In this document: in pieces, positions 32,067 to 59,998 of the stretch | How the letters are laid out: each line of letters begins with the position of its first letter | Position numbering within the stretch: the stretch's first letter is position 1 | Assembly (NCBI RefSeq): GCF_030540825.1 | Contig: NZ_JAUOEO010000002.1 | Span: 248,001 to 312,000 of the forward strand | DNA from: Flavivirga spongiicola | GTDB taxonomy: Bacteria; Bacteroidota; Bacteroidia; Flavobacteriales; Flavobacteriaceae | Direction of reading: 5' to 3' | DNA length: 64,000 nucleotides | Program-made: the position numbers and the translations under genes | The notes under the pieces: model-generated | The model's database searches: none | What the model was told of the DNA's origin: nothing | Seen by the model: the letters and a program-made list of their open reading frames with translations, nothing else

Positions 32067-32819
32067 TTGCTTTCATTTTTTAATTACAAAACCTTGAAGA
32101 ATTATCTCATAATAGAAACAGAAGAAACTGTTATAAATAAAATTAAAGAAGTGCTTAGTGATTTTCCTGAATTTAATTGTATCGGTTGCACTTATGATCA
32201 TCCAGAACCTATTGAGTTTATTCTTAAAAACATGCCCGATTTAATCTTTTTGAATCTAGATACCGTATTACACAATCCTTTTAATTTTGTTAATGAAGTG
32301 GAGCAATATTTAAAAAAAGATTATGAGTTTATTGCTATTTCATCTTCAAAAGAAAAAACATATGATGCCATAAAAACTGGTTTTTTTGATTATTTATTAA
32401 ACCCAATAACTGACCTAGATATAAGAAAAGCTGTTTTAAAGTTTAAAAAAAAACATCCAAATAAAATAAATAAAACTATTTGTCTAAAATCTTATAAAGA
32501 TTATCAGTATTTGAATACGGATGAAATTTTGTTTTTAAAAGCAGATAATAATACTACTGATTTTTATATGAACAACGGGCATACCATAAGTGCTTTTAAA
32601 ACACTTAAAACTTTTGAATTAACATTACCAAGAAATTTTTTAAGAATACATAAAAGTTATATTGTCAATAAAAACTATGTTAACAGAGTTAATTATGGTA
32701 CTTTAAATTGTACATTAAAAAAGTGTTTAAAAAATATACCATTTAGTAAAACATATATTAATAATATAGAATCCATGATTAATACATTGTCTCAAACTTC
32801 TGTATTGGGGTTAAGTTGA
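32067..32819 (+). CDS. LytTR regulator with degenerate receiver
   Basis: 250 residues; no ATG is available and TTG at 32067 (or 32094) is the likely start. Residues 12-125 follow the response-regulator fold. The acidic pair after LII is E-T instead of D-D. The phospho-acceptor position reads FLN (Asn63) instead of FLD, and the conserved Lys in YLLKP is Asn (YLLNPI). It therefore cannot be phosphorylated in the usual way. Residues about 145-245 form a LytTR DNA-binding domain (FLRIHKSYIVNKNYVNRV). No kinase gene is adjacent. It precedes the secretion cluster and may regulate it by a phosphorylation-independent signal. Confidence 0.85.
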   Translation: MLSFFNYKTLKNYLIIETEETVINKIKEVLSDFPEFNCIGCTYDHPEPIEFILKNMPDLIFLNLDTVLHNPFNFVNEVEQYLKKDYEFIAISSSKEKTYDAIKTGFFDYLLNPITDLDIRKAVLKFKKKHPNKINKTICLKSYKDYQYLNTDEILFLKADNNTTDFYMNNGHTISAFKTLKTFELTLPRNFLRIHKSYIVNKNYVNRVNYGTLNCTLKKCLKNIPFSKTYINNIESMINTLSQTSVLGLS

Positions 32820-33119: not shown

Positions 33120-33797
33120 ATGATGAGTCCCTACAGAGTTTTACTAATTGATGATCATCCATTAATTACAAATGTTTATAAAAGAACTTTACAAACTATA
33201 GCAAAGTTAAATAAGACCCTTAAATTTAATATCGATGTAGCCCATAGTTGTGATATGGCTATTTTTAAAATCAATGAAGCAACCAAAAACAAACCCTTTG
33301 ATATTGTTTTTTTAGATATAGGGCTGCCTGCTTCTCAAGACAATAAAATATTGGGAGGTGAAGATTTAGGCATATTAATTAGAAAGCAATTTAAAAAGAT
33401 CAAAATAATTGTATCTACAAGCTATGATGATAGTTACATGATTTCTTGTATTCTTAAAAATGTTAATCCTGAGGCCTATGTTACTAAAGGAGATTTAACT
33501 ATAGACATATTAACCGAAACCATAAAAACAGTTGTTTTAGATCCACCTTATTACAGTAAAACTGTAATGAAAATATTGCGTAAACAATCTGCAAATGACT
33601 TTGTTATTGACAATATTGACAGAAAGATTTTGTATGAACTATCTAATGGGACTAAAATGAACGAATTGCCACAAGTTTTACCCCTTTCAATAGCCGCATT
33701 AGAAAGAAGAAAACGAATACTAAAAGATGTTTTTAATGTTGAAGGTAAGGGGGATAGAGACCTGTTACAATTAGCTCATGAGAAAGGGTTTATTTAA
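33120..33797 (+). CDS. Response regulator, NarL/FixJ-like
   Basis: 225 residues. The receiver is intact: Asp11 and Asp12 (LLIDDHP), phospho-acceptor Asp66 (FLDIGLP) and Lys123 (YVTKGD). The C-terminal 60 residues form a LuxR-like helix-turn-helix (ILYELSNGTKMNELPQVLPL, then AALERRKRILKDVF), though more diverged than usual. No histidine kinase lies nearby. It stands 233 bp ahead of the pilin-like operon, with a perfect 20-bp palindrome in that gap, so it is a candidate controller of the secretion cluster. Confidence 0.85.
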   Translation: MMSPYRVLLIDDHPLITNVYKRTLQTIAKLNKTLKFNIDVAHSCDMAIFKINEATKNKPFDIVFLDIGLPASQDNKILGGEDLGILIRKQFKKIKIIVSTSYDDSYMISCILKNVNPEAYVTKGDLTIDILTETIKTVVLDPPYYSKTVMKILRKQSANDFVIDNIDRKILYELSNGTKMNELPQVLPLSIAALERRKRILKDVFNVEGKGDRDLLQLAHEKGFI

Positions 33798-34030: not shown

Positions 34031-35296
34031 TTGAAAAATAATTTCAAAAATAATTTCAAACTTAAGTACATGTTAAAGGGATCTTCTTTAATGAATGCCA
34101 TTTTTGTTTGTGTTATTATTTCTGTTTTTAGTGGTTGTTTTATTTTAATATCTCATTACCAAAACATATTGAATGATAGGCTTTATTTACAAGAAGATTT
34201 AATTAGTAGAAATGAGTCGGCATTCAATTATTTTTTGAATAATAGCAAATTGGTTTCATATAACGATACTAAGGAAATTACTGTTTTTGATGATGATATC
34301 CCATCTTTTATTGAAAAAAAGAACTGGGGTTTTTACAATATTTTAATTTGTAAAACAGTATTTAAAAATGATACTATTAGCAAAATGGCTTTGGTGGGTA
34401 GCATTAAAAAAGTTGAAGACGATTTGGCTTTGTATGTTACAGATTATGATAAGCCTTTAAAATTATCTGGTAAAACTAAAATTTTAGGAGATATCAAAAT
34501 CCCTAATGGGCGCTCTGAGCAAGCCTATGTTAATGGACAAAAAGGTAATGCATTAACCTTAAAAGGTAGGCAATTAAATTCTAAAGATAGACTCCCGAAA
34601 ATTGATAAAATTATTAATCTGGATGTTTCTGGTTTACCCCGTTTATCATTTAATGCCATTAATGAAGAAAAGGTGCTAGTTAATGGGTTTGATAATGTAA
34701 CCAAAGTTATAGATGTTAATGGTATAGCTTCCCTAAAGGATATTAGCTGTAAGGGTAATTTTATTTTGTATTCCATTAACGATTTAGAAATAGATAGCTC
34801 TGTAACACTAAACGATGTGGTTATTATAGCCCCTGTTGTTAAAATTGCGTCGGGGTTTAAAGGTAATGTTCAAATTATAGCGAATCAGACGGTTGTTGTT
34901 GAGGAAAACGTATCCTTATTGTATCCATCTAGTATTTATATTAAAAATGATACAGATATAGTTTCCATAGAAATAAAAAAAAACAGCACATTAGTTGGAG
35001 GAATTGTAATAGATGGAGATACTTATAATAATTCTTTAGAACGTAAATTATATATAAATGAAGATGCTACTGTTATAGGGAATGTGTATTGCTATGGAAG
35101 TACACAATTAAAAGGCACAATCGTTGGAAGCATTTACACAGATAGGTTTTTTCTAAAAACAGAGGCTTCAAACTATGAAAATATCATCTTAAATGGATGT
35201 ATAGACAAAGAGAAACTTCTCGAGAATTTTGTGGAGCTTCCATTATTTAATAACTCATTCGATAAAAAAAAACATGCGGTTATTAAAGAATTTTAA
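34031..35296 (+). CDS. Pilin-like protein with beta-helix domain
   Basis: 421 residues from TTG 34031 (alternative ATG 34070). A Lys-rich leader precedes G-SSLMNAIFVCVIISVFSGCF, a type IV pilin-like N-terminal helix, but position +5 after the predicted cleavage is Asn instead of Glu. Residues about 230-380 contain regular V/I-x-I repeats (FILYSINDLEIDSSVTLNDV and GNVYCYGSTQLKGTIVGSIY) that look like a bactofilin-type beta-helix. It resembles large minor pilins of the PilX/GspK class, where loss of Glu5 marks the tip subunit. It overlaps the next pilin gene by 23 bp. Confidence 0.7.
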   Translation: MKNNFKNNFKLKYMLKGSSLMNAIFVCVIISVFSGCFILISHYQNILNDRLYLQEDLISRNESAFNYFLNNSKLVSYNDTKEITVFDDDIPSFIEKKNWGFYNILICKTVFKNDTISKMALVGSIKKVEDDLALYVTDYDKPLKLSGKTKILGDIKIPNGRSEQAYVNGQKGNALTLKGRQLNSKDRLPKIDKIINLDVSGLPRLSFNAINEEKVLVNGFDNVTKVIDVNGIASLKDISCKGNFILYSINDLEIDSSVTLNDVVIIAPVVKIASGFKGNVQIIANQTVVVEENVSLLYPSSIYIKNDTDIVSIEIKKNSTLVGGIVIDGDTYNNSLERKLYINEDATVIGNVYCYGSTQLKGTIVGSIYTDRFFLKTEASNYENIILNGCIDKEKLLENFVELPLFNNSFDKKKHAVIKEF

Positions 35297-35624
35297 AAAG
35301 CTGAAAGCCTCATCATTGGTAGAATCTGTCATAGCAATCGCCATTATTTCTATTTGTGTTTTAGTGGTTTTTATGGCTTACCTAAATGTTATTAATCTAA
35401 ACAAATCGGTTTATTATTATAAGGCTAAACATACTGTTGAGTTTTTAACACATGAAAGTATAGAACAGCAAGATTACGAAGATGATGTTTTTAAATATAG
35501 AGGATATACTGTTACTAAAAAAGTGACAATTAATAAAGAAGATCAAGTGGTTTTGCTATCATTTTTTATAAAAACAGGACATAATGAGTATCAAATTAAC
35601 AAGCTAATCCCATACAATGAATAG
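35274..35624 (+). CDS. Minor pseudopilin, GspI/PilV-like
   Basis: About 116 residues from ATG 35274; a longer frame from 35229 is less likely. The leader MRLLKNFKKLKA is followed by SSLVESVIAIAIISICVLVV, with Glu at +5 and a long hydrophobic helix, the prepilin signature. The small C-terminal domain has no cysteine pair. It overlaps both neighbours (23 bp and 8 bp), showing tight co-translation. Confidence 0.8.
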   Translation: MRLLKNFKKLKASSLVESVIAIAIISICVLVVFMAYLNVINLNKSVYYYKAKHTVEFLTHESIEQQDYEDDVFKYRGYTVTKKVTINKEDQVVLLSFFIKTGHNEYQINKLIPYNE

Positions 35625-36129
35625 CATGTGTTTGAAGAGTTTTACAGTATTAGAGGCCTTAATAAGTTTAATTCTTATGGGAATTATTATAACGCTAAGC
35701 TATACTGTGTTTAATTTAATAGAAAAACAAATGACACTTTTTCAAAATGAGAATACAGGCATTTTACAATACAACTTATTTAATACAACCATTAAAAATG
35801 ATATTTATAACGCTAATAATTTTACTCAAGATAACAACCAATTGTTATTAGAGTATTACGATGGATCAAGTATAAATTATCAAGTCTCAAAGCATTTTAT
35901 TTTAAGACACCATGATATAAAAACAGACACTTTTAAACTCCGAGTTTTAAGCCATAAGTTTTTACAAAACGGTATTTCTAAACCTTTGGATAAAATACTT
36001 CAGGTTTCCATTGAAGTTTTGGGTGATTCTATCAATACAAATTATTATTTAAAAAAGAATACCGCCAATACTATAAATAGCGTCTATTTTAATGACACAA
36101 CCATAACCGTTAAAAAGAACAAATACTAG
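35617..36129 (+). CDS. Minor pseudopilin, GspJ/PilW-like
   Basis: 170 residues. The short leader MNSMCLKS precedes FTVLEALISLILMGIIITLS, the canonical prepilin helix with Glu5. The globular part is of minor-pilin size. It overlaps the preceding pilin by eight bases and is three bases from the GspF-like gene. Confidence 0.8.
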   Translation: MNSMCLKSFTVLEALISLILMGIIITLSYTVFNLIEKQMTLFQNENTGILQYNLFNTTIKNDIYNANNFTQDNNQLLLEYYDGSSINYQVSKHFILRHHDIKTDTFKLRVLSHKFLQNGISKPLDKILQVSIEVLGDSINTNYYLKKNTANTINSVYFNDTTITVKKNKY

Positions 36130-36132
36130 CAG

Positions 36133-37257
36133 TTGAAAATTGAAATAAGTACATATAATCCAAAAGCAAAGAAGAAAAATGCTCTAAATACAGAGATTAA
36201 TTTTTCTACGTCTATTTTTAAACGGTTTTCTGATAAACAAAAAGAAGATTTTTATAGAGAATTTTCGACTCTTATAAAATCTGGAGTAGATTTTAATCAA
36301 GCATTAGAAATATTAACCAGTCAACAAAAATCTAAATTTGTAAGATCTATTTATAAAACTATTAATGATGATGTTGTTAAAGGAAAATCACTTCACCAAG
36401 CCATACAAAATTATAAATACTTTTCGCCTTACGAATATTATAGTATTAAAATAGGCGAAGATACAAGGCGATTACCAGCGATTTTTGATCAACTCCAAAA
36501 ATTCTTTTCACGAAAAATTAAAATGAAAAGACAAATTGTTTCTGTTTTGGCATACCCGGTGTTTGTGTTACTTATAACATTTGGGGTACTCTATTTTATG
36601 CTAAACTTTGTAGTGCCTATGTTTGCATCTGTTTTTCAGCAATTCGGAAAGGAATTACCCGAAATCACACAATTTGTTGTAAATGTTTCAAACAATTTTA
36701 ATGTTATAATTTCAGTGATAACGGGGTTTGTTTTGTTAACGGTTGTAGCACATAAGTTATTAAAACAACATGAGGTTTATAAAAGAATCACATCAAATAT
36801 ACTGCTAAAAACACCTTACTTTGGAGGCCTTATTAGAAAAATATACTTAGCACGATTTTGCCAATCTTTTGGGTTATTACTATCCGCAAAAACCCCATTA
36901 ATCACATCTTTAGAATTAGTAGAAAAGATGATTACATTTTACCCGCTCAAAAACGCGTTGTCACAAACTAAAAAAGACATTCTAAAAGGAGAAACCCTAG
37001 CTAGTAGTTTAAAGAAATACACCTTTTTTACTTCAAAAATAATATCGTTAACGGCCATTGGTGAGCAAATTAATGAGTTAGATACTATGTATGATGGATT
37101 GGCAAACCAATACAACGATGATGTAGATCATTCTACTAAAATGATAGGAACCATTTTAGAACCAATAATGATTGTCATTATTGGGGGGATTGTAGGTTTT
37201 ATAATGATTGCGATGTACTCACCAATTTTTAATTTAAGTAAGGTCATTCAAAATTAG
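36133..37257 (+). CDS. gspF: GspF/PilC-like inner-membrane platform protein
   Basis: 374 residues; TTG at 36133 is the only reasonable start. The F domain starts with FYREFSTLIKSGVDFNQALE, and its duplicate with FCQSFGLLLSAKTPLITSLE. Three hydrophobic regions lie near residues 135-160, 185-210 and 345-370 (PIMIVIIGGIVGFIMIAMYSP). It is the membrane platform that couples the ATPase to pseudopilus assembly. Usual length is about 400, so it is slightly short at the N-terminus. Confidence 0.92.
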   Translation: MKIEISTYNPKAKKKNALNTEINFSTSIFKRFSDKQKEDFYREFSTLIKSGVDFNQALEILTSQQKSKFVRSIYKTINDDVVKGKSLHQAIQNYKYFSPYEYYSIKIGEDTRRLPAIFDQLQKFFSRKIKMKRQIVSVLAYPVFVLLITFGVLYFMLNFVVPMFASVFQQFGKELPEITQFVVNVSNNFNVIISVITGFVLLTVVAHKLLKQHEVYKRITSNILLKTPYFGGLIRKIYLARFCQSFGLLLSAKTPLITSLELVEKMITFYPLKNALSQTKKDILKGETLASSLKKYTFFTSKIISLTAIGEQINELDTMYDGLANQYNDDVDHSTKMIGTILEPIMIVIIGGIVGFIMIAMYSPIFNLSKVIQN

Positions 37258-37283
37258 ACATCAAATAATTTAAAGTTTAAAAA

Positions 37284-37712
37284 ATGAAAAAGTTAGTATT
37301 AAAATTAAAGAAAAAAAAGGGCCATTTAAAGGCATACTCTATGTCGGAGATCTTAATTGTACTCTGTATTATTGGGATCTTAATTTATTTGGTCGTGCCC
37401 AACCAAACATCTGTAGTTACAAGTGCTAAATCTATTGAAGCACAGAATATGTTAAGTATGATTCATGGTTTAGAAAAAAGCCATTTTTATCGCCATTCTA
37501 AATACACTGCAGATTTTAATGAATTGGGGTTTGAAGAAACTTTAACTATAGATAAAGGCGGACAAGCAGTATATAAAATTGCAGTTACAGAAGCTTCGTT
37601 AAATAGTTTTAAAGCCACAGCTACAGCATTGCAGGATTTTGATGGCGATGGAGTCTTCAATACCTGGGAAATAGACCAAGACCGTAAATTAAGAGAAATT
37701 GTAAAAGATTAA
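37284..37712 (+). CDS. gspG: Major pseudopilin, GspG-like
   Basis: 142 residues. The Lys-rich leader ends at Ala17, followed by YSMSEILIVLCIIGILIYLV, with Glu at +5 and a hydrophobic helix ending VVPNQT. The domain after it contains DFDGDGVFNTWEIDQD, a calcium-loop-like segment reminiscent of the calcium site near the C-terminus of GspG. Its place after gspF and ahead of the peptidase, and its size, suggest the main subunit of the pseudopilus. Confidence 0.85.
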   Translation: MKKLVLKLKKKKGHLKAYSMSEILIVLCIIGILIYLVVPNQTSVVTSAKSIEAQNMLSMIHGLEKSHFYRHSKYTADFNELGFEETLTIDKGGQAVYKIAVTEASLNSFKATATALQDFDGDGVFNTWEIDQDRKLREIVKD

Positions 37713-37713
37713 T

Positions 37714-38196
37714 ATGGCACATAACTTAGGATACATTTTGTTAATAATCGTGTTGCTTTTTGTACTATATTTTGATACAAAAAAGCGAACCATACATATT
37801 ATTTTACCTATACTAATTTTCAGTTTCTCAATACTGATTAATTATACGTCTCCTAATTTAAAATTAATAGATATTATATATAATCTTGTTTTTTTACTCA
37901 TTAATATATTAGGTCTCATCCTTTATTTTTCATTAAAAACAAAAGCATTTGTTAACCCCATAGATCGTTTTATTGGCTTAGGGGATATCGCTTTTTTCAT
38001 AGCCATAACGCCGCTTTTCAAACTTGAAACATTTATTCTATTTTTTATAGTAGGCTTACTGTTTTCATTGTTACTATATGTCATAATCTTATTGTTTAAA
38101 GAGATAGAAACCGTTCCACTTGCAGGTTATTTAGCATTGTACCTTGTCATTAATATAGTCGTACAGCATGTATTTAATATGAATCTATCTATCTAA
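37714..38196 (+). CDS. Minimal prepilin peptidase (A24 family)
   Basis: 160 residues, almost entirely membrane-embedded. The two catalytic aspartates of GxGD proteases are visible as Asp21 in FDTKKRTI and Asp91 in GLGDIAFF. The N-terminal methyltransferase domain and zinc-binding cysteines of full-length PilD/GspO are missing, so it would cleave leaders without N-methylating the new end. Starts one base after gspG and overlaps the ATPase start by one base. Confidence 0.82.
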   Translation: MAHNLGYILLIIVLLFVLYFDTKKRTIHIILPILIFSFSILINYTSPNLKLIDIIYNLVFLLINILGLILYFSLKTKAFVNPIDRFIGLGDIAFFIAITPLFKLETFILFFIVGLLFSLLLYVIILLFKEIETVPLAGYLALYLVINIVVQHVFNMNLSI

Positions 38197-39602
38197 TGGA
38201 GGCAGCAAAAATTAATCATATAAACGTATCGGTTAGCTTGCAGCAAGCTATTAGTTCTGAGATGGCAAATCACTTTCTAATCATTCCGAAAAGGGTTACA
38301 GAAACTGAATATGTATTCTACATTGATCAAAATCAAGAATTAGAACTCTATAGCATTAAAGAAGAACTTAAACTGCTTTTTGATAAGAAAATATGCTTAG
38401 AAACTGTAGAGACTTCCATAATAAAAAAAGCGCTTTCCATTTATTATAGAAAGAATGACTCTCAGCCTAAATTGGTTTCTTATGGCAATGATTTTTTGGA
38501 AGATCTAATTTTTGAAGCAAAGCATATAAATGCCAGTGATATTCATATAGAAATATATGAAGAAGATGTACGGGTTAGATTGCGAATAGATGGTCAATTA
38601 ATTGAGAAAAATAACATAAAAAAAGAGAGTTATTTAGAGTTGATTAACCAAATTAAAATTAAATCGAATTTAGATATTACAGAAAAAAGATTGCCTCAAG
38701 ATGGTAGAATTGAATATGATGATTTCGATATAAGGGTTTCTATTTTGCCCACACATCATGGTGAAAAAGTGGTCATGCGTATATTAGGAAGGGATGCTTC
38801 TCATTTGGATATTTATCAACTAGGGTTTGAAGCAGATGATTTGCCGTTTTATCTGGAAGCTGTAAAAAAGACTAATGGTATTATTTTAATTAGTGGTCCT
38901 ACCGGATCTGGAAAAACCACCACTTTATATGGGACTTTAAAACACCTCAATAACATAAATACGAATATTGTTACTGTTGAAGACCCTATAGAATATACAT
39001 TAAAGGGTATAAATCAAGTACAACTAAAAGAAAATATAGGACTCACTTTTACATCTGCATTACGATCTTTCTTAAGGCAAGATCCAGATATCATTATGTT
39101 AGGAGAGATTAGAGATGCACAGACTGCTCAAATGGCTATTAGGGCATCTTTAACAGGACATTTAGTACTATCAACAATTCATACTAATTCTGCAATAGGT
39201 ACCATTTCCAGATTGGTAGATATGGGAGTGCCATCTTTTTTAATTGCCGAAACTATCAATATATCTGTAGCACAAAGATTAATAAGAACCCTATGTAAAA
39301 CATGTAAGAAAGAACAGGAATTTAATGAAGACGATTTACCATGGTCCTTTATTCCAAAAAATAAATTAAAGAAACACTATGTAGCTGTGGGATGCGATGA
39401 TTGCTACCATACTGGTTATAAAGGTAGAAGAGCTATTTATGAAATACTACCCATTACCCGTGATGTGATTGATGCCATAAAGAAGAATACATTGGAACAG
39501 TCTGATGCCATGAAAAACAAAAAACTATCTGACAAAGCTTTTGATCTATTTTCAAAAGGACTTACATCGTTAGATGAAATTTACCCAATACTTATCAATT
39601 AA
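38196..39602 (+). CDS. gspE: GspE/PilB-like assembly ATPase
   Basis: 468 residues. Walker A is GPTGSGKTTTLYG (about 234-246), followed by the Asp box VTVEDPIEYTLKGINQVQ, Walker B DPDIIMLGEIRD (about 295-306) and the His box TGHLVLSTIHTNS. A tetracysteine zinc site is present (Cys367, Cys370, and the CDDC pair near 400). The N-terminal part is shorter than in GspE of proteobacteria. It powers pseudopilus extension. It lies between the peptidase and the secretin. Confidence 0.95.
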   Translation: MEAAKINHINVSVSLQQAISSEMANHFLIIPKRVTETEYVFYIDQNQELELYSIKEELKLLFDKKICLETVETSIIKKALSIYYRKNDSQPKLVSYGNDFLEDLIFEAKHINASDIHIEIYEEDVRVRLRIDGQLIEKNNIKKESYLELINQIKIKSNLDITEKRLPQDGRIEYDDFDIRVSILPTHHGEKVVMRILGRDASHLDIYQLGFEADDLPFYLEAVKKTNGIILISGPTGSGKTTTLYGTLKHLNNINTNIVTVEDPIEYTLKGINQVQLKENIGLTFTSALRSFLRQDPDIIMLGEIRDAQTAQMAIRASLTGHLVLSTIHTNSAIGTISRLVDMGVPSFLIAETINISVAQRLIRTLCKTCKKEQEFNEDDLPWSFIPKNKLKKHYVAVGCDDCYHTGYKGRRAIYEILPITRDVIDAIKKNTLEQSDAMKNKKLSDKAFDLFSKGLTSLDEIYPILIN

Positions 39603-39605
39603 ACT

Positions 39606-41537
39606 ATGTCGTACAGAATTATAATGACGCTTATATCATGTATTATTTTTAATATAAGTTTTTCACAAACGAATATTAAAGTATTTACTGAAAAATTAAA
39701 CGAACTATCAAAAACGAAAAAAGGGTTGCAAGATAATGTTAGAATTGATTTAAGTGGTTTAACATTGTACGATTTTATCAATGCTTTAGCAGAAGAACAT
39801 CAATTAAATGTTAGCGTCGATTCAAATTTAAATCAACTTGTTACAAGCAATTTTTATGATGTAAATATAAAAGATGTCTTCTTATTTTTAATTAAAAAAC
39901 ACCAACTGGAAGTTGATGTGTCAAACAATATTTTGATCTTTAATAAAAAGCCTGAAGTGGTTGTTATTAAAAAACCGAAACCATTAAAAAATATAGATGT
40001 TTCTTATAATGAACAAAACAAATTTTTATCTGTTAAATTAAAAAACGATTCATTACCAAGAGTAGCACAAGCGATTACGGATGCTTCAAAAAAAAATGTG
40101 GTATTAGCTCCGGATATTAAAGACCAAAAAGTATCTGCATATATTTTAAACAGGCCTATTGATGAGGTGTTGGAAATGATGGCAAAATCAAATAGTTTAG
40201 TTTTAACCAAAGACGAAAACGATAATTATTACCTTGAAAAGGGCGTAGTCGCTCCTCCACAAGTTCCTAAAAAAACGACTGCATCACGTTCTAGCAGAAG
40301 AAGTCAATCAACAAAAAACAGATCCACAAATCAAGCAAGCGCAGGTGCTTTTGAAATAAAAACAAATGCTCAAGGCTTTTTAGATATTAAAGCTTATGAA
40401 GCCGATGCCGCAGATATAATTAATGAAGCAGCTGAAAAATTAAATATTAATTTCTTTATGTATAATACGCCACAAGGCGTGATAACAACCTTGGTGGCCA
40501 ATGGTATTACGTTCGACAATCTATTAAACCATCTTTTTAAAGGCGAAAATTATACTTATAAAAAAGCGGATAACTTATACTTAATAGGCGAGCATGCTAC
40601 TGAAGGTATTAGAATGACAGAATTAGTGCAGTTAGAAAACAGAACTATAGAAACAGTTTTGAGTACACTGCCAGCTGCTGTAACAGAAACACTCGAAATT
40701 AAAGAATTTGTCGAGCTTAATGGCTTTGTGGTTTCTGGATCAAAAAATCATATCCAAGGATTTAAAGATTATATATATGAAATAGATCGGGTCGTTCCTG
40801 TTATTCAAATAGAGGTTATTATTGCACAGTATCAGAAGTCCTATGAAATACAAACAGGCATGCAGGCTGGGATTAATAATGAACCAGGAGCTACATCGGG
40901 GGTTTTGTTCCCTACAAGTGATGTAAGCCTTAATGCCACATCAGTAAACGGATTAATTGATGCATTTAATGGTTTAGGGATTGTAAACCTTGGTAAGGTT
41001 TCCGAGAAATTTTATCTAAACTTAAAAGCCTTAGAAAACAACTCACTTATTAAATTATCGTCAACACCCAAACTAGTAACACTTAATGGGCATGAAGCCA
41101 CATCTTCAATAGGCGAAACTAATTATTATTTTGAGCAGAATAACAGATTAATAAATTCTGGTGTAAATAATAATATTCTTCAATCTGGTACGTGGAAATC
41201 GACCGAAGCAAATTTGAGTATAAATATTAAACCTTTTGTCTCTAAAGATGAAAATGTGACGCTTACTATTTCTGTTGAGAAAAGCTCATTTTTAGGAAGG
41301 GCAGGAGAGAACGCTCCTCCAGGTAAGTCTACTCAAAAATTTGAATCGATGATTAGTGTGAAAAATAATGAGATGATTCTTTTAGGAGGGTTAGATGAAT
41401 TAGAAAATGAAAATTCAGGAACAGGAACACCTTTACTATCGAGAGTTCCGGTAATTAAATGGTTGTTCAGTGGAAGAAAGAAAAGAAAAGAAAAATCGAA
41501 GCTTCATATTTTTATTAAGCCTACAGTTACTTATTAA
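39606..41537 (+). CDS. gspD: Secretin, GspD/PilQ-like
   Basis: 643 residues with a signal peptide (cut near ISFSQ, about residue 21). Residues 40-110 form an STN-like domain (LSGLTLYDFINALAEEHQLN). Two further N-type domains follow, separated by a Ser/Arg-rich linker (about 218-242). The secretin pore spans about 395-643 (PVIQIEVIIAQYQKSYEIQT, SSTPKLVTLNGHEA, MILLGGL, ending LHIFIKPTV). It is the outer-membrane channel of the machine. No separate pilotin is obvious; the FN3 lipoprotein downstream is a possible helper. Confidence 0.92.
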   Translation: MSYRIIMTLISCIIFNISFSQTNIKVFTEKLNELSKTKKGLQDNVRIDLSGLTLYDFINALAEEHQLNVSVDSNLNQLVTSNFYDVNIKDVFLFLIKKHQLEVDVSNNILIFNKKPEVVVIKKPKPLKNIDVSYNEQNKFLSVKLKNDSLPRVAQAITDASKKNVVLAPDIKDQKVSAYILNRPIDEVLEMMAKSNSLVLTKDENDNYYLEKGVVAPPQVPKKTTASRSSRRSQSTKNRSTNQASAGAFEIKTNAQGFLDIKAYEADAADIINEAAEKLNINFFMYNTPQGVITTLVANGITFDNLLNHLFKGENYTYKKADNLYLIGEHATEGIRMTELVQLENRTIETVLSTLPAAVTETLEIKEFVELNGFVVSGSKNHIQGFKDYIYEIDRVVPVIQIEVIIAQYQKSYEIQTGMQAGINNEPGATSGVLFPTSDVSLNATSVNGLIDAFNGLGIVNLGKVSEKFYLNLKALENNSLIKLSSTPKLVTLNGHEATSSIGETNYYFEQNNRLINSGVNNNILQSGTWKSTEANLSINIKPFVSKDENVTLTISVEKSSFLGRAGENAPPGKSTQKFESMISVKNNEMILLGGLDELENENSGTGTPLLSRVPVIKWLFSGRKKRKEKSKLHIFIKPTVTY

Positions 41538-41538
41538 A

Positions 41539-42726
41539 ATGTTACCAAAAAAATTAATAAACATATTTAACGATACTAAGAGATACTATGCGTTAAGCAT
41601 ATCCAAGAATAATGGTGTATCAGTGTATTATTTAATAACATTGCTATTCGAAGACAATGAGTTAAAAATTGAAGATCGGTATACATCTAAAAATATTGAT
41701 GATGCATTTAAAGCGAATTTAAATAAAAACTACCCGGTAATTTTACATATTGAAGGAGATAGTATCATAAATAAAAGTGTTGAAAACAAAGCAGGGTATA
41801 GGAAAAGTTTAATATTTAAGTCGAATCTAGACGACTTTTACTTTTATGAATATAAGCAAGAAGAAACGGTATACGTATCAGTTGCGAGAAAAGAACTTAT
41901 TGACACTTTTATAAAAGAGATAAATGCATTAAGGGTTTTTGTAGTTCATCTTTCTTATGGCCCTTTTGTAATGGCCAATTTACTTCCTGTTATAAAAAAC
42001 TATTCGAGTATTTCATCAGCTAATTATGCCATCGATATAAATGAAAATACAATATTATCTTTTAGGAACGCCGGTAACTCTAAAAACCAATATGCAATCA
42101 ACGGAGATGTTTTTAACGCTTATGAAATACCGCTAATTGGAGCTTTTTTTGGCTATAAGTTTCCTAAGGATAGTATTGAATTTGATACTGATTTTTTGAG
42201 TAATAACGCTAGTGAATTCAAGTTTAAAAAATGGTTTAAAACAGCATGTGTGTTTTCACTTTTCTTTTTTTTACTTACACTTTTTTCAAGTCACTTGCTA
42301 CACAATTCCTATGTAAGAACTTTAGCTGAAAAAGAATCGGTTTATGCTTTGTCACAACAAACAGCTATGGAGATTAACGCGCTTAAAGAGGAAAAAGGAT
42401 TAAAAGAAAAAATACTTCAAACCACTAATATTAGTAACAAAAGTTTCATTACAAAATATGTAGCAGATATAGGAAACTCAACACTTCCTGAAATTACATT
42501 GAAAACAATTCATGTCATTCCCAGACTAAAAAAAATAGAGCATGATAAGAAGATAGACTTTCATTTTAATATCATTAATATAACAGGCAAAGTCACAAAT
42601 GATGATGCTTTTAATCGTTGGATAAAAAAAATGAAGACACTAAAGTGGGTTGAGAAATTAGATATTGTTGATTACTCGCAAGAAAGCAAAATAATGAATG
42701 CATTTAACCTAAAAATAGAAATCTAA
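41539..42726 (+). CDS. GspL/PilM-PilN-like assembly protein
   Basis: About 395 residues from ATG 41539; a frame opening at 41470 lies inside the secretin gene. The cytoplasmic part (about 1-230) looks like a diverged actin-like PilM/GspL domain. One membrane helix follows (about 232-257, ACVFSLFFFLLTLFSSHLL), then a coiled stretch and a small ferredoxin-like periplasmic domain (about 320-395) as in PilN or GspL. Assignment rests on layout and position between secretin and the PilO-like gene. It should link the ATPase to the inner-membrane platform. Confidence 0.72.
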   Translation: MLPKKLINIFNDTKRYYALSISKNNGVSVYYLITLLFEDNELKIEDRYTSKNIDDAFKANLNKNYPVILHIEGDSIINKSVENKAGYRKSLIFKSNLDDFYFYEYKQEETVYVSVARKELIDTFIKEINALRVFVVHLSYGPFVMANLLPVIKNYSSISSANYAIDINENTILSFRNAGNSKNQYAINGDVFNAYEIPLIGAFFGYKFPKDSIEFDTDFLSNNASEFKFKKWFKTACVFSLFFFLLTLFSSHLLHNSYVRTLAEKESVYALSQQTAMEINALKEEKGLKEKILQTTNISNKSFITKYVADIGNSTLPEITLKTIHVIPRLKKIEHDKKIDFHFNIINITGKVTNDDAFNRWIKKMKTLKWVEKLDIVDYSQESKIMNAFNLKIEI

Positions 42727-43254
42727 GTGTTCGATAATTTAACATATAAGCGAAAATTTTTCTTAGTTATAATTGGTTTTGTATTGCTTTTTATGGCATC
42801 GTATAAAAAAACGTTTAAGCATACCTTAGCTGCTAAAAAGGAGCTCAACCATGTAAAGCAAAAACTTGCGAATACCGATCATTCGTTTAATAGCTTATAT
42901 ACTTTAAAAAATGATATCAAGGTTTTAGATAAATTGATTGGGGGACGCTCGTTAAACCCTATACATGTTCAGCAAAAAATTCTTGATTTTATATCTAAAA
43001 CAGATTTAATAATAAATATAGTATCCATTGAAGACGTTCATGTATTTGCTGATAAGGAATTTTTAATTTATTCTAACCAAATTGAGATTGAAGGCACCTA
43101 TGAAGCGCTCATCAAATTACTTTATGAAACAGAAAAGAACTTCAAAGATTCTCGTGTGGTAAGCTCAGAATTTTACTCAAAAAAAAACTATAGGACAAAT
43201 AAGCAAACCCTCTATTTAAAAATAATATTACAGAATTATGAAAAAGCTAAATAA
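42727..43254 (+). CDS. GspM/PilO-like assembly protein
   Basis: 175 residues from GTG 42727, directly after the previous stop. One N-terminal membrane helix (FFLVIIGFVLLFMASY), a coiled stretch, and a C-terminal alpha/beta domain (IEIEGTYEALIKLLYETEKN) typical of PilO/GspM. These partner with PilN/GspL in the inner-membrane complex. Its end overlaps the next lipoprotein gene by 17 bp. Confidence 0.72.
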   Translation: MFDNLTYKRKFFLVIIGFVLLFMASYKKTFKHTLAAKKELNHVKQKLANTDHSFNSLYTLKNDIKVLDKLIGGRSLNPIHVQQKILDFISKTDLIINIVSIEDVHVFADKEFLIYSNQIEIEGTYEALIKLLYETEKNFKDSRVVSSEFYSKKNYRTNKQTLYLKIILQNYEKAK

Positions 43255-44221
43255 TACCATTTTATACCCAAATTGGTATAGTATAATTTTAATACTAACC
43301 TTACTATTTATAGCATTTGCTTGTGATGATATTTTAGAAGAAGATATTACAAATGATGTTGTACAGGTTATTTCACCGACCGAAGGCACAGTAATTGAGG
43401 GCAATACCGTTCAGTTTTTGTGGCAAACTATTGAAGGCGCTGATAGTTATAGAGTTCAAATTATTAAAAATAACCAAAGGCACGTAGCAGACTCTTTAGT
43501 GACAATAACAAATTTCACTTATAATTTGGATCCGGGAGATTATCAATGGCGTATCAAAGCTGAAAATTTTGCTTATGAAACAGATTATACTTTTCCTATT
43601 AATTTTGAGATGCGCGCTTCAGAAGATTTATCAAATCAAAGTGTGTTGCTTCAAACACCTTCAGAAAATTTATATACCAATAACAAAAACATCATTTTTA
43701 CCTGGAACAGTTTAGCTAGTGCTGACACCTATACATTTGTATTGGCAAAAAAGTTGGGAGGAGAACAAACCGTCTTCCAACAAGCAGATATAACAAAAAC
43801 AAGTTTAAATATCGACCCTACTAAACTTGATGAAGATGCCGAATATATATGGAAGCTTAAAGCTATAAATACAACATCTGAAACGTTTTTTTCAGTACGA
43901 TCTCTTTTTATTGATACCGTGATACCTAATCAACCAACATTATCTGAACCATTGGATGATGCAAAAGTATCGCCATCGTCTGTTACTTTTAATTGGGCTA
44001 ATGGTGCCGATTCAGGAACTATTCAATCGCTAATTACGAATACTTTAGAAATTTCTACAAATGCCGATTTTAATACCATTATCCATTCAGCTAGCACGAC
44101 AAACAATTCTGCAGTCTACGAATTTGTCACACCTAATACTTATTACTGGCGAATAAAGGCTATAGATGCAGCTAAAAATGAAAGTGATTATAGTATTGTA
44201 AGATCTATAGTTATTGAATAA
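43238..44221 (+). CDS. FN3-like lipoprotein in secretion operon
   Basis: 327 residues. Signal ends in a lipobox (FIAFAC, Cys29) followed by acidic DDILEED, which suggests transport to the outer face of the outer membrane. About three fibronectin-III-like units follow, each with a W-x-x-(I/L)-x-(G/S)-A-D-(S/T)-Y start and a YxWRIKA end (VQFLWQTIEGADSYRVQI; FTWNSLASADTYTFVLAK; YYWRIKAIDAAKNES). It lies inside the machine operon, so it may be a surface component, a secretin helper or a substrate receptor. Not present in classical T2SS loci. Confidence 0.75.
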   Translation: MKKLNNTILYPNWYSIILILTLLFIAFACDDILEEDITNDVVQVISPTEGTVIEGNTVQFLWQTIEGADSYRVQIIKNNQRHVADSLVTITNFTYNLDPGDYQWRIKAENFAYETDYTFPINFEMRASEDLSNQSVLLQTPSENLYTNNKNIIFTWNSLASADTYTFVLAKKLGGEQTVFQQADITKTSLNIDPTKLDEDAEYIWKLKAINTTSETFFSVRSLFIDTVIPNQPTLSEPLDDAKVSPSSVTFNWANGADSGTIQSLITNTLEISTNADFNTIIHSASTTNNSAVYEFVTPNTYYWRIKAIDAAKNESDYSIVRSIVIE

Positions 44222-44241
44222 TAATACTAATTAAACGTCAT

Positions 44242-44739
44242 TTGAAAAAAAAATATCTAAATAGTGTTTTAATAGTCTTTCTTATTGTGATTTGGGGGGC
44301 AGTGCTATATAAGTACTTTGGTAAGCCTAATACTTCAAAAAAAAATATTAAAAATGAGATGTCTAGTATAAGTTATCAACCTAAATATATGGTGACGAAA
44401 GATACTTTTTTACTCGAAATAATAAACAAAACACCTTTTAAAACTTCTAAAAACCTTAGAAAAAAAGTAATAACCACGAAGCCCAAAGTAGTATCAAAAA
44501 AGCCGCCTGTTAAACCCATTAAAAAAACAACTGCGGTTTGGCCAGACATAAGTTACCATGGTTTTGTTAAAGGTAATCAGAAAGCAACACGACTTATTTT
44601 ATTAAAAATAAATAAAAAACTCTATAGAAAACGAGAAAATGAAGCGGTAGATGATTTAACCTTAATAAAAGCATATAACGACTCTCTAATCGTATCATTT
44701 AATAACATAAAAAAAACAATAACAAAAATCCATGACTAA
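44242..44739 (+). CDS. GspC/PilP-like protein
   Basis: 165 residues from TTG 44242. One N-terminal membrane helix (SVLIVFLIVIWGAVLYKYF), a Lys/Pro-rich linker (about 70-95), and a small beta domain (ISYHGFVKGNQKATRLILLK to the end). That domain fits the homology region of GspC/PilP, which links the inner-membrane complex to the secretin. Identification is by architecture and position. It overlaps the Skp-like gene by eight bases. Confidence 0.68.
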   Translation: MKKKYLNSVLIVFLIVIWGAVLYKYFGKPNTSKKNIKNEMSSISYQPKYMVTKDTFLLEIINKTPFKTSKNLRKKVITTKPKVVSKKPPVKPIKKTTAVWPDISYHGFVKGNQKATRLILLKINKKLYRKRENEAVDDLTLIKAYNDSLIVSFNNIKKTITKIHD

Positions 44740-45244
44740 TTTTAATCGTCTTACTATAACAAATACTATTTTAATAGTAATAGCCATCATTGTAGCTTTA
44801 ATTAATTATTTACAATCCATTAATCAGAAAGATATGGTGTATGTAGATAACATTAAATTGTTTAACGGTTTTAATATGACTAAAGATGTTAAAGTTATTG
44901 AAGAAGCCAAGATTAATACACAAGCAAAAGAACTTGATAGTTTATATTCAAAACTAAAATCACTATCAAGTGAAGAAAAGGTAGACACATTTACTAAAAA
45001 CCTACAGCAACAAATAGCTTATAAAAGTAAAGCGTTACAAGAAGCTCAAGATAATTATACTTATAATTTAAATCAGAATGTATGGCATAGACTTAATACT
45101 TATATAAAATTATATGGGCAAGCTCATGATTATGAGATTATATTGGGGACGAACGGTAATGGTAATGTTATGTTTGCCAAAGAGACCATTGATATTACCA
45201 ATCAAATTATAGAATATGCAAATAAAAAATATGAAGGCCATTAA
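44732..45244 (+). CDS. Skp/OmpH-like periplasmic protein
   Basis: 170 residues. A membrane segment or uncleaved signal (ILIVIAIIVALINYL) is followed by VYVDNIKLFNGFNMTKD, a long helical hairpin region and the typical OmpH ending ILGTNGNGNVMFAKETIDIT. Skp-type chaperones form jellyfish trimers that hold unfolded outer-membrane or secreted proteins. Encoded at the end of the machine operon, this one may chaperone the secreted fibre proteins; that is inference. Confidence 0.8.
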   Translation: MTNFNRLTITNTILIVIAIIVALINYLQSINQKDMVYVDNIKLFNGFNMTKDVKVIEEAKINTQAKELDSLYSKLKSLSSEEKVDTFTKNLQQQIAYKSKALQEAQDNYTYNLNQNVWHRLNTYIKLYGQAHDYEIILGTNGNGNVMFAKETIDITNQIIEYANKKYEGH

Positions 45245-45311: not shown

Positions 45312-45935
45312 ATGAAAGTTTTAACAAGTGTTTTTTTAATGGGGTCGTTTAAGAATTTTTCGTTTTACTGTCTTTTTATCTGCGTGCTAGGCGTTATTAT
45401 ATCTTGTAATAATTCTGAAAAAACAAATACCCAACCAGCATATAAAATCTACAATTTACAACAACAAGGATGGAAATCTAAGCGTGTCAATCAGTTTGTC
45501 AATGATATAAATTATACGGCTACAGAAGTTCCCTTGCAATATTATTTTTTTAAAAGTACCGGCGGTGATTATAAAAAAGCAGACTCCTTATATGATATAA
45601 ATAAAAGAGAACGCGTCATCGAAATTGAATTTCAACACACCAATCAAACCGATCTTTTATTAGATAAATACACCAACAAATCATATGAAGATGCTGTAAA
45701 ATATATGGCATTTACCATCGAAAAAGATTTCTCAATAGTAACATCTTCTAACGATACTATTTCATGTTCAGGAGTGAATTTTGAACGTAATTTTAAAGTT
45801 GCACCTTTTAAACGAGTATTGCTCTACTTTAATCATATAAATCCTAACGACCATATAAAACTAATATACCAAGATCAACTATTTGGTAATGGGATTATTA
45901 AATTCAATTTTAACGAAATGCCTTTAAAGTTATAA
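45312..45935 (+). CDS. Putative lipoprotein of unknown function
   Basis: 207 residues; alternative start at the second Met (45339). The signal ends in LGVIISC followed by NNSEK, a lipobox. The mature part is mixed alpha/beta with two further segments (VIEIEFQHTNQTDLLL, FERNFKVAPFKRVLLYFNHI) but no domain I recognise. It stands between the machine operon and the first fibre-like gene, three bases from the latter, so it is probably co-expressed with it. Confidence 0.68.
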   Translation: MKVLTSVFLMGSFKNFSFYCLFICVLGVIISCNNSEKTNTQPAYKIYNLQQQGWKSKRVNQFVNDINYTATEVPLQYYFFKSTGGDYKKADSLYDINKRERVIEIEFQHTNQTDLLLDKYTNKSYEDAVKYMAFTIEKDFSIVTSSNDTISCSGVNFERNFKVAPFKRVLLYFNHINPNDHIKLIYQDQLFGNGIIKFNFNEMPLKL

Positions 45936-45938
45936 ATT

Positions 45939-48167
45939 ATGAAAATAATTATAAAAACCATTTTCTTACTTATTTGCAGTATTTCTTTTGCTCAATTTGA
46001 TATGTCATATCAAGCAATTTTAGACGAAGCTACTACTCAGGGGTATGCCTTACCAAGTACTGCCGACCAAGCCATACAAAATCAAGTGATTGTTAGCACA
46101 AAAGCCAATGGTATATGGGCAAGTTCTGATTTGATTTTATACTTTAAAGGAAGTGGAGATAAAAATTTCAAACTTATAAACTGGAAGAATCCTACAGGTC
46201 CAAAAGCAACAGAGGATGATTTTGGAGGAGCATTAACATGGGGAGCTACTGGAGTAAAGGGAGATGGTTTAAACTTAATAAATACGCGTTTTAACCCTAC
46301 ATCGTCAGGGCTTAATTATCTGCAGAATGATGCAGGTGTTTATGTGAAAGTTACACAAGCCTATACGACTAAGCATAACATATTTGGAAATGCTAAGGTT
46401 TCTATAAATACAATATTTTCAAGACCAGAAATAAATTCAGATGGAAGTTTACCTCCTGTATTTACTTTTCCAGGAACTGGTTTATTTGGATTGTCGAGAA
46501 ACAATGCCACCACTTATATCGTCTCCGTTGACTCTGCCTTAACAACATTAACACATAGTTCTGGGAGTAATACAAATGAAGAGCTAAAGGCTTTGGGTTA
46601 TGGAACTGTTTTAACATCAAACTATACAAGATTTGACGGTGAAGTAGCATATGTTATCATAGGAAGTGATATGTCTGATAAATTATCGGACATGGCAACT
46701 GCTTTTGAAACAACATCTGGTGATACTCAGGCTCCCACTGCTTCAACCTTATCCAGTACCTCACAAACAAGTACCACAGTAGATTTAAGTTGGGCTGGAG
46801 CTACAGATAATGCAGCGGTAACTGGATACAAGGTATACAAAGATGCGGTGTTAGAAACCACTTTGGGCAATGTTTCAAGCTATCAGGTTACAGGACTTAC
46901 AGCAGCAACTGCTTATAATTTTACAGTGACCGCTTTAGATGCAGCTAGTAATGAGAGTGTGGTTAGTAATACTGTAGTTATTACTACAGATAGTGCAAGT
47001 AATAACATTTTTTTAGAAGGCAATGCAGCTAATTTAAATAATGATGCAGATACTATAGGAAGTTGTACAGGAGTAGGTGTTGATATAACAAGCGTAAGTA
47101 ATGGAGATGGAACATTTAAAATTAGAGCCACAGCCAATACAACAGGAACAGGAAGACTTGTTTTTTATTTTCCTGCAAGTACAACAGGACCTCATGAGTT
47201 AAGGTGGACGGCTTCAGAAAGTAATGGGGCTGATGGAAGAACAGCGCAAGGGAAAAACAGTGATGGTTTTGGAACTTTTTTAACTTTCACACCCAAGCCC
47301 TCTTTTAGCAATACACCAACAGAATATGTTTCTACTTTAACAAATTTAGATGGTACAGGGTTCTCTGTAGAGTTTTTTATGTATGGTATGACCATAGGGG
47401 ATTATATAGATATTGATAATATTTCAATTATTCCAATAGTAGATTCGGAAGTTCCTTCTACGTCAACGTTGTCCAGTACAGCACAAACAGATACGACAGT
47501 AGATTTAAGTTGGACAGCAGCAACCGATAACGTAGCTGTAACAAACTATAAAGTTTACAAAGATGCAGTATTAGAAACCACTTTGGGCAATGTTTTAACT
47601 TATCAAGTAACAGGACTTACAGCAGCAACGGCTTATAACTTTACAGTGACAGCTTTAGATGCAGCAGGGAATGAAAGTGTGGTTAGTAATACTTTGGCTA
47701 TTACGACTAATCCGGCTTCGGGAGGAGGCTCAGGTAATTGGACTTTGAATAACCAGGATGTCTACTACAATACAGGTAATGTAGGTATCGGTACAACTAC
47801 ACCAGATGAAAAACTAGCCGTTAATGGTAATATACATGCCAAAGAAATACGGGTTGATTTAAATGACTGGCCAGATTATGTGTTTACCAAAAGTTATGAT
47901 TTACCTACACTTAAACAAGTAGAAGAATACATAAAACGTAAGGGGCATCTACCTAATATTCCATCAGCCAAAGAAGTAGAGGAAAGTGGTATTCAGTTAG
48001 GAGATATGAATGCAAAGCTTCTTGAAAAAATAGAAGAGTTAACACTTTATATTTTACAACAACAAAGAAAAATAGATAAAAAGGATATCGTTATTCTTGA
48101 TCTTGAAGAAAGATTAAAAACCCAGGAAAGCCGACTTAAAAAAATAGAAAACTTATTGAAGTTATAA
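45939..48167 (+). CDS. Modular FN3 fibre-like surface protein A
   Basis: 742 residues with a signal peptide (about 1-19). Order of parts: an N-terminal domain (about 25-250, starting YQAILDEATTQGYALPST) also found in protein C; an FN3 module (about 262-350); a beta-sandwich-like domain (about 353-500, NIFLEGNAANLNNDADTIGS) shared with protein B; a second FN3 module (about 502-590); and a C-terminal module. The last starts GSGNWTLNNQDVYYNTGNVG and runs through HLPNIPSAKEVEESGIQLG to a coiled coil, as in tail-fibre-like proteins. No type IX sorting domain is visible. Probably exported to the cell surface; function unknown. Confidence 0.8.
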   Translation: MKIIIKTIFLLICSISFAQFDMSYQAILDEATTQGYALPSTADQAIQNQVIVSTKANGIWASSDLILYFKGSGDKNFKLINWKNPTGPKATEDDFGGALTWGATGVKGDGLNLINTRFNPTSSGLNYLQNDAGVYVKVTQAYTTKHNIFGNAKVSINTIFSRPEINSDGSLPPVFTFPGTGLFGLSRNNATTYIVSVDSALTTLTHSSGSNTNEELKALGYGTVLTSNYTRFDGEVAYVIIGSDMSDKLSDMATAFETTSGDTQAPTASTLSSTSQTSTTVDLSWAGATDNAAVTGYKVYKDAVLETTLGNVSSYQVTGLTAATAYNFTVTALDAASNESVVSNTVVITTDSASNNIFLEGNAANLNNDADTIGSCTGVGVDITSVSNGDGTFKIRATANTTGTGRLVFYFPASTTGPHELRWTASESNGADGRTAQGKNSDGFGTFLTFTPKPSFSNTPTEYVSTLTNLDGTGFSVEFFMYGMTIGDYIDIDNISIIPIVDSEVPSTSTLSSTAQTDTTVDLSWTAATDNVAVTNYKVYKDAVLETTLGNVLTYQVTGLTAATAYNFTVTALDAAGNESVVSNTLAITTNPASGGGSGNWTLNNQDVYYNTGNVGIGTTTPDEKLAVNGNIHAKEIRVDLNDWPDYVFTKSYDLPTLKQVEEYIKRKGHLPNIPSAKEVEESGIQLGDMNAKLLEKIEELTLYILQQQRKIDKKDIVILDLEERLKTQESRLKKIENLLKL

Positions 48168-59800: not shown

Positions 59801-59998
59801 GGTAAATATTTTGGGCAGTTTGAATTATGGGGGCAACGTAAAGATAAAAGCTATTTAAAAACAGCTATAGAGTTACAAGACAGTTTCCATGACTATGTTT
59901 CTAAAACGTTTTTAACGCTTACGGTTTATAAAAGTAAGGGGTGCCATGGAGAATCATACCAAGATAATAAGTTATTTGATTCTGAACTTCCGGATTAA
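53801..59998 (+). CDS. Giant SpvB/RHS-like surface protein
   Basis: 2065 residues. A signal-like N-terminus ([20 protein letters not shown]) is followed by the block [20 protein letters not shown], then [20 protein letters not shown] and [20 protein letters not shown], typical of large Bacteroidota SpvB/RHS-type proteins. I see no run of YD repeats and no RHS-core DPxG-type end, so it is not a classic RHS toxin. A hydrophobic segment lies near 1413-1440. Residues about 1885-1925 form calcium-binding thrombospondin-3-type repeats ([17 protein letters not shown]), then a C-terminal beta domain. No type IX sorting domain. Probably secreted or surface-attached by the neighbouring machine. Confidence 0.75.

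Follow-up and report, generated by a model that had tools for sequence, protein, structure and literature searches.

In 2017, a putative type II secretion system (T2SS) was described in Cytophaga hutchinsonii (chu_3191-chu_3202), with Fjoh_0611-0622 of Flavobacterium johnsoniae among its relatives (PMC5553014), and in 2019 the Cytophaga-type system was suggested to be a separate secretion type derived from the type IVa pilus (T4aP), the published trees grouping it with T4aP and apart from T2SS (PMC6668835). Cytophaga mutants show weaker adhesion to cellulose and a changed profile of cellulose-bound outer-membrane proteins, while motility is kept (PMC5553014). Here, we examine a stretch of 64,000 nucleotides from Flavivirga spongiicola (NCBI RefSeq assembly GCF_030540825.1, contig NZ_JAUOEO010000002.1, positions 248,001 to 312,000 of the forward strand; hereafter the window, in whose positions all coordinates are given), which carries a cluster of this kind at 34031-44739. 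The kind of machine is thus already known (PMC5553014, PMC6668835). A first-pass annotation of the window had raised a distinct subtype as a possibility. New here are an FN3 lipoprotein that accompanies the machine, a Skp-like protein that falls outside its core, and the co-occurrence and linkage with the machine of RHS proteins and of proteins with a shared C-terminal domain (CTD); the available part of the Cytophaga study mentions neither a direct substrate nor any FN3 lipoprotein, Skp, RHS or CTD partner (PMC5553014).

On balance, we favour reading the cluster as a type IV filament machine that belongs to the T2SS-like kind of Bacteroidota and serves protein export, not motility, with giant proteins encoded next to it as the best cargo candidates. 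By its phyletic distribution the FN3 lipoprotein is a likely missing component of this machine, and RHS and CTD proteins become candidate cargo through their co-occurrence and linkage with the machine, which makes the question of what it exports testable. If true, the machine would be an outer-membrane exit for Bacteroidota RHS proteins, a group often linked with the type VI secretion system in other bacteria.

Gene content and order of the cluster

Judged by open reading frame (ORF) coordinates and Pfam matches, 12 genes of a type IV filament machine lie on one strand (+) at 34031-44739. With the likely ATG starts at 35274 and 41539 assumed, neighbours overlap by 23, 8, 1, 17 and 8 bases, which bears out the tight same-strand run with overlaps of 1-23 bp reported by the first-pass annotation. 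Its assignment to a T2SS or type IV pilus type of machine also stands: GspF (2.4e-46), GspE (9.2e-122) and the secretin (2.9e-34) are above their Pfam cut-offs, as is OmpH/Skp directly downstream (1.8e-12), and the A24 peptidase (3.6e-4), fn3 (0.004) and the pilin N-termini are below theirs. A secretin-based scan of named genomes yielded 40 loci, including Flavivirga, Aquimarina, Flavobacterium, Mesonia and Salegentibacter, and in 34/40 the full set of 12 genes, first pilin through GspC, keeps the same order and strand, which shows that the layout is not due to chance. The eight genes from GspG to GspC are kept in 38/40. Six loci are incomplete: four (L044, L049, L063, L067) end at contig ends, and in L048 and L061 upstream DNA is present with no match to the first four genes. 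The closest secretins, at 89-91% identity in the best segment, belong to three Flavivirga species and one Gaetbulibacter.

The first gene encodes a large minor pilin (34031-35296) with a bactofilin-like C-terminal region (Bactofilin 0.0019, below cut-off). It has no Glu at position +5, which is N, Q or Y in 24/24 aligned sequences (by eye), and since GspK also lacks Glu5 we propose a GspK-like tip pilin. Two further minor pilins of conserved order follow, at 35274-35624 (the ORF opens at 35229, with the ATG at 35274; N_methyl 0.0036, below cut-off) and 35617-36129 (N_methyl 0.068, below cut-off), then the GspF/PilC platform protein (36133-37257) and the major pseudopilin (37284-37712), which has the leader KA|YSMSE and an EF-hand-like loop, DFDGDGVFNTWEID, near its C-terminus. 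The DxDxDG motif of this loop is found in 60/63 major-pseudopilin sequences retrieved from several Bacteroidota families and could possibly serve as a marker for machines of this kind. Against the curated GspG model TIGR01710 the major pilin reaches only 24.1 bits (2.9e-5) for a cut-off of 88.85, and its best-scoring models, Myxococcus PilA and ComGC, are all below cut-off. Hence the label 'complete T2SS' used in the first-pass annotation does not hold, and of its pilin count the four pilin-like proteins stand, but with the GspG-like one already included among them.

A short A24-type prepilin peptidase (37714-38196), in which D21 and the GxGD residue D91 are invariant across a 40-row alignment, precedes the GspE/PilB assembly ATPase (38196-39602) and the secretin (39606-41537), which ends at its secretin domain (residues 475-641 of 643; STN 7.1e-5, below cut-off). 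In the whole 5.9-Mb genome, GspE is the single match over the PF00437 cut-off; the other PF00437 match, in an 881-aa frame, scores 23.7 bits, and no PilT retraction ATPase was found over the cut-off. The genome therefore has one assembly ATPase with no PilT found. The protein at 41539-42726 is predicted to combine an actin-like domain, a long helix and a ferredoxin-like periplasmic domain in one chain, as anticipated for GspL, so that PilM-like and PilN-like domains are joined and separate PilM and PilN proteins are missing. The GspM fold anticipated for 42727-43254 fared less clearly: in the ranking of its predicted fold PilO comes first and the GspM periplasmic domain appears lower in the list, and we call it a PilO/GspM-type protein. 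The FN3 lipoprotein (43238-44221), with CDDILEEDI from the lipid cysteine on, is followed by an inner-membrane protein (44242-44739) that we assign, weakly, as GspC/PilP-like, its orthologues matching Pfam T2SSC in 2/26 cases (best 7.6e-4) and PilP in one, at 0.1.

Ahead of the cluster lie a LytTR-type response regulator (32067-32819, +; Pfam LytTR 3e-17) and a second response regulator (33120-33797, +; Response_reg 3e-7). Homologues of both are found upstream of the cluster in close relatives too, and in L074 a homologue of the second adjoins the major pilin (GspG) gene.

On a broader scale, 121/247 Bacteroidota genomes contain a secretin, and the 40 stretches read from these are of several kinds, among them machines resembling this one and T4aP loci that have both PilB- and PilT-type ATPases. 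In G077 the machine genes are split over two loci, with GspE in one and the secretin and major pilin in the other (L127 and L092), and some distant machines have other short lipoproteins beside the major pilin gene (L088:13203-13763, L089:5247-5849, L085:15426-16025, L090:6905-7489). In the ATPase tree the deep forks are open and long branches meet, leaving the relation to E. coli GspE unsettled.

An FN3 lipoprotein that accompanies the machine

The co-occurrence of the lipoprotein with the machine was evaluated in 149 Flavobacteriaceae genomes, nearly one per genus, of which 32 are secretin-positive and 117 secretin-negative (own genome counted unless stated). With an E-value of at most 1e-20 and at most 15 candidates scored per genome, the FN3 lipoprotein is present in 31/32 secretin-positive and 0/117 secretin-negative genomes (Fisher p 3e-31), G303 being the only secretin-positive genome without a match. 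The FN3 lipoprotein is thus a near-constant companion of the machine, and its place in a conserved layout, seen by the first-pass annotation in this locus only, extends to the 34/40 loci above. In nine genomes, as in this locus, 2-3 kb separate it from the secretin; in 15 the distance is 5.7-49 kb, and in seven the lipoprotein is on another contig. For 16 of the 22 genomes in the last two groups the match is partial, often covering residues 1 to about 118, and in L133 a short form adjoins the GspC-like and first-pilin genes. Retention with the machine through such rearrangement is as expected of a component, and the FN3 lipoprotein is likely to be a missing one, as far as its distribution and sequence indicate.

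Its Cys29 is invariant (26/26), and with a mean column identity of 53% across the loci it is about as conserved as the 42727 protein (54%), with 41539 at 44% and 44242 at 42%. The acidic stretch after the lipid cysteine resembles Bacteroidota surface-lipoprotein signals.

Candidate cargo beside the machine

Past 45244 the same-strand run goes on with a lipoprotein, three proteins that share the CTD, a 2065-aa protein and a leucine-rich repeat (LRR) protein. The CTD comprises ~130 residues with a coiled-coil-like stretch at its end, and stalk-like parts of relatives of the CTD proteins match phage tail-fibre families. Among six giant proteins scanned beside distant clusters, five have RHS_repeat, two of those together with DUF6443. 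In the Flavobacteriaceae sample, DUF6443 is over cut-off in 30/32 secretin-positive vs 2/117 secretin-negative genomes (p 9e-27; 29/31 with the own genome excluded), and among the matches listed it lies within 30 kb of the secretin in 22/30 genomes (24/76 matches), and within 15 kb in 14 genomes. Including rows below cut-off, it occurs in 31/32 genomes and is linked in 24/31, with 26/82 matches near the secretin vs 1.2 expected. The position counts exclude CTD rows of <100 bits and, where a DUF6443 frame gave two fragments, the second one; they use rounded genome sizes. CTD genes of at least 150 bits are, among the matches listed, present in 19/32 secretin-positive vs 6/117 secretin-negative genomes (p 7e-11), and 51/86 lie within 30 kb of the secretin, where 1.2 are expected. 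In G077, CTD genes flank both of the separate machine loci.

The pattern is not confined to one family or to comparisons across genera. Among 36 genomes chosen by score, length and neighbourhood, 14 machine-bearing ones are from outside the family (for G014, one of two long secretins was used); 9/14 have DUF6443, within 15 kb of the secretin in 8/9, and 4/14 have CTD genes, each with one within about 16 kb, among the matches listed. Within Flavobacterium, also among the matches listed, the secretin occurs in 21/150 genomes and DUF6443 in 64/150, over cut-off in 20/21 secretin-positive vs 41/129 secretin-negative genomes (p 2.5e-8), and DUF6443 lies within 31 kb of the secretin in 15/20 and within 15 kb in 5/20. 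Association with the machine and linkage to it thus recur at each of three taxonomic depths, and the RHS/DUF6443 giants and the CTD proteins may be regarded as the best cargo candidates.

Several points weigh against cargo status. Because the genomes are related, the Fisher values suggest more independence than there is; the positions in Flavobacterium had already been seen when the 31-kb limit was chosen; and some of the CTDs used to build the CTD profile came from beside the machine, a bias towards linked ones that makes the independent Pfam DUF6443 model count for more. At lower thresholds the CTD contrast weakens, with at least 100 bits reached in 24/32 secretin-positive and 24/117 secretin-negative genomes and an E-value of at most 1e-3 in 42/117 secretin-negative ones (among the matches listed). 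Of the five CTD genes in the own genome, three are here and a second pair is on another contig. DUF6443 is present in 44/129 secretin-negative Flavobacterium genomes, in 41 of them over cut-off (among the matches listed). The strongest counter-evidence comes from the Flavobacterium genome G245 (L123-L125), which has 16 CTD and three DUF6443 genes among the matches listed, and in which genome searches found neither a secretin nor a GspE over cut-off. Gene loss, a gap in the assembly or a different route of export would each account for this. Linkage itself could reflect shared regulation or co-transfer. Second in weight to G245 is the finding that in Cytophaga the soluble extracellular proteins of the mutants hardly changed; the authors also doubt that the affected porins include direct substrates (PMC5553014). 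Surface-bound or uninduced cargo would fit the nearly unchanged soluble proteins, as would other cargo.

Exclusivity of CTD or DUF6443 to the machine was considered and rejected, as they are present in secretin-negative G245, G222, G084 and others; for DUF6443 it fails within Flavobacterium (the 44/129 above), in contrast to 2/117 across genera.

These counterpoints feed the rival that survives best, although we consider it unlikely: a real machine, with the CTD and RHS proteins leaving by the type IX secretion system (T9SS) or an unrecognised path and merely sharing a region or regulator with it. G245, the secretin-negative Flavobacterium genomes with DUF6443 and the Cytophaga secretion data all suit it, and a T9SS route has been hypothesised for a different class of large toxins in Bacteroidetes that often contain Fn3 domains (PMC7073777). 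It accounts poorly for DUF6443 in 30/32 vs 2/117 genomes across genera and for the linkage in other families. Nor did six candidate cargo proteins give an NCBIfam match to a T9SS sorting domain, in a scan against a library that should include such models and with an RHS protein truncated by the end of its locus.

The run itself starts, after the Skp-like gene, with a lipoprotein (45312-45935, +) that usually follows Skp. The CTD proteins are encoded at 45939-48167 (with FN3 domains, fn3 7.2e-19; CTD alignment A1), 48171-50933 (Pfam scan and CTD alignment) and 50935-53769 (CTD alignment and genome search), all on the + strand. The 2065-aa protein (53801-59998, +), with a signal-like N-terminus and TSP_3 as its only Pfam match, is a further candidate cargo, and ORFs similar to it by their N-termini lie near the machine in L150, L155 and L156. 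A 2977-aa LRR/Ig protein starts at 60127 (+) and runs past the window end at 64000, and an RHS/DUF6443 giant follows it beyond the window (L138:10801-). RHS proteins near the machine are often paired (L139, L140, L141, L142, L145, L147 and others), the first of ~1000-1190 aa with a YD-like end and the second being the DUF6443 protein, which varies in its last residues from genome to genome. The linked RHS protein of L139 ends in an HNH domain, so some RHS proteins may be toxins.

The Skp-like gene (44732-45244, +), whose product has an N-terminal hydrophobic segment (by eye), had been placed inside the operon by the first-pass annotation. As a machine component it was rejected: among 36 loci with at least 1500 bases past GspC, it directly follows GspC in only 15 (L041 holds Skp downstream but fails the distance rule). 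The conserved order with both lipoprotein and Skp that had been envisaged for other genomes is thus borne out for the lipoprotein but not for Skp, which is absent from many machine loci. Skp homologues adjoin CTD genes in eight loci (L081, L119, L127, L131, L132, L134, L135, L136), and some Skp-CTD neighbourhoods hold no machine gene in the stretch. The tie is partial: outside close relatives Skp is present in 8/23 CTD loci and missing from 15/23, and eight loci have Skp with no CTD gene in the stretch. We propose that the Skp-like protein belongs to the cargo module and not to the machine core; that it acts as a chaperone for CTD cargo is a guess.

A proposed mechanism and its relation to known systems

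What the data show is the set of genes and its kept order, the predicted folds of two proteins, and the co-occurrence and linkage; from these we infer each step of the following mechanism, in which the neighbours would be the cargo. GspE, docked on the GspL-type protein, would drive assembly of a pseudopilus on the GspF platform. The pseudopilus would be short and probably calcium-stabilised, built from the EF-loop major pilin, with the large bactofilin-like pilin lacking Glu5 at its tip. The GspL, PilO-like and GspC-like proteins would couple the inner-membrane part to the secretin, and the FN3 lipoprotein may be the outer-membrane partner of the secretin, as an assembly factor or a surface gate. 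Cargo would reach the periplasm by Sec, fold there, in some cases with Skp-like help, and be pushed out folded through the machine; it would consist of the neighbouring tail-fibre-like CTD proteins and the RHS/DUF6443 proteins, of which at least one ends in a toxin-like part. Fibre cargo has a precedent in Legionella, where a trimeric adhesin depends on the T2SS (PMC11162425). More tentatively, and with less confidence than we place in an export machine as such, the whole may be a separate Bacteroidota secretion system that combines T4aP-like and GspL-type parts, a calcium-loop pseudopilus and, as a permanent component, an FN3 outer-membrane lipoprotein. Its main cargo would then be RHS/DUF6443 giants, some of which end in toxin-like parts, together with trimeric tail-fibre-like CTD proteins that a membrane-anchored Skp-like chaperone would serve.

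It is improbable that the cluster builds a surface type IV pilus that serves adhesion, twitching or DNA uptake. The PilA and ComGC preferences of the major pilin and the PilO-like fold of 42727 would suit such a pilus, as would the published trees (PMC6668835), but a PilT-type ATPase over cut-off is missing from the genome, G143 and G116 have both this machine and a separate T4aP locus with two ATPases, G231 has in addition to this machine a second locus with a PilT-type ATPase, and the Cytophaga mutants are still motile (PMC5553014). An ordinary T2SS as in Proteobacteria is slightly less probable still, because the GspL-type single chain and the tip pilin without Glu5 are outweighed by a major pilin far under the curated GspG cut-off, the PilO-like 42727 and the published phylogenies that set the system apart (PMC6668835).

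Compared with known systems, the export machine that we favour has its phylum in common with the T9SS, likewise an exporter of large surface proteins, and we know of no T9SS component that the two share. Polymorphic toxins provide a parallel on the cargo side: signal-peptide RHS and tail-fibre proteins appear under 'T2SS/Sec-dependent' in Table 1 of PMC3482391, yet the signature given there is the signal peptide ('default pathway'), and the available part of that source makes no link to this machine. T4aP resemble the machine in the PilO-like fold and in the published phylogenetic affinity (PMC6668835), and differ from it in that here no PilT was found and PilM-like and PilN-like domains occur in one chain. 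With the proteobacterial T2SS it shares the secretin, GspE, GspF, a GspL-type single chain, a tip pilin without Glu5 and the lack of PilT, whereas the PilO-like M protein, the major pilin outside the GspG equivalog, the FN3 lipoprotein and a gene order unlike that of the E. coli K-12 T2SS set it apart. The Cytophaga and F. johnsoniae system is of the same kind by gene content (D, E, F, G, an A24 peptidase, minor pilins and L/M/C-like genes), not by sequence comparison, and the F. johnsoniae order given in PMC5553014 is the order found here: pilins, F, G, O, E, D and then three L/M/C-type genes. Among the latter, Fjoh_0621, which carries no component name in that study, would by position alone be the FN3 lipoprotein.

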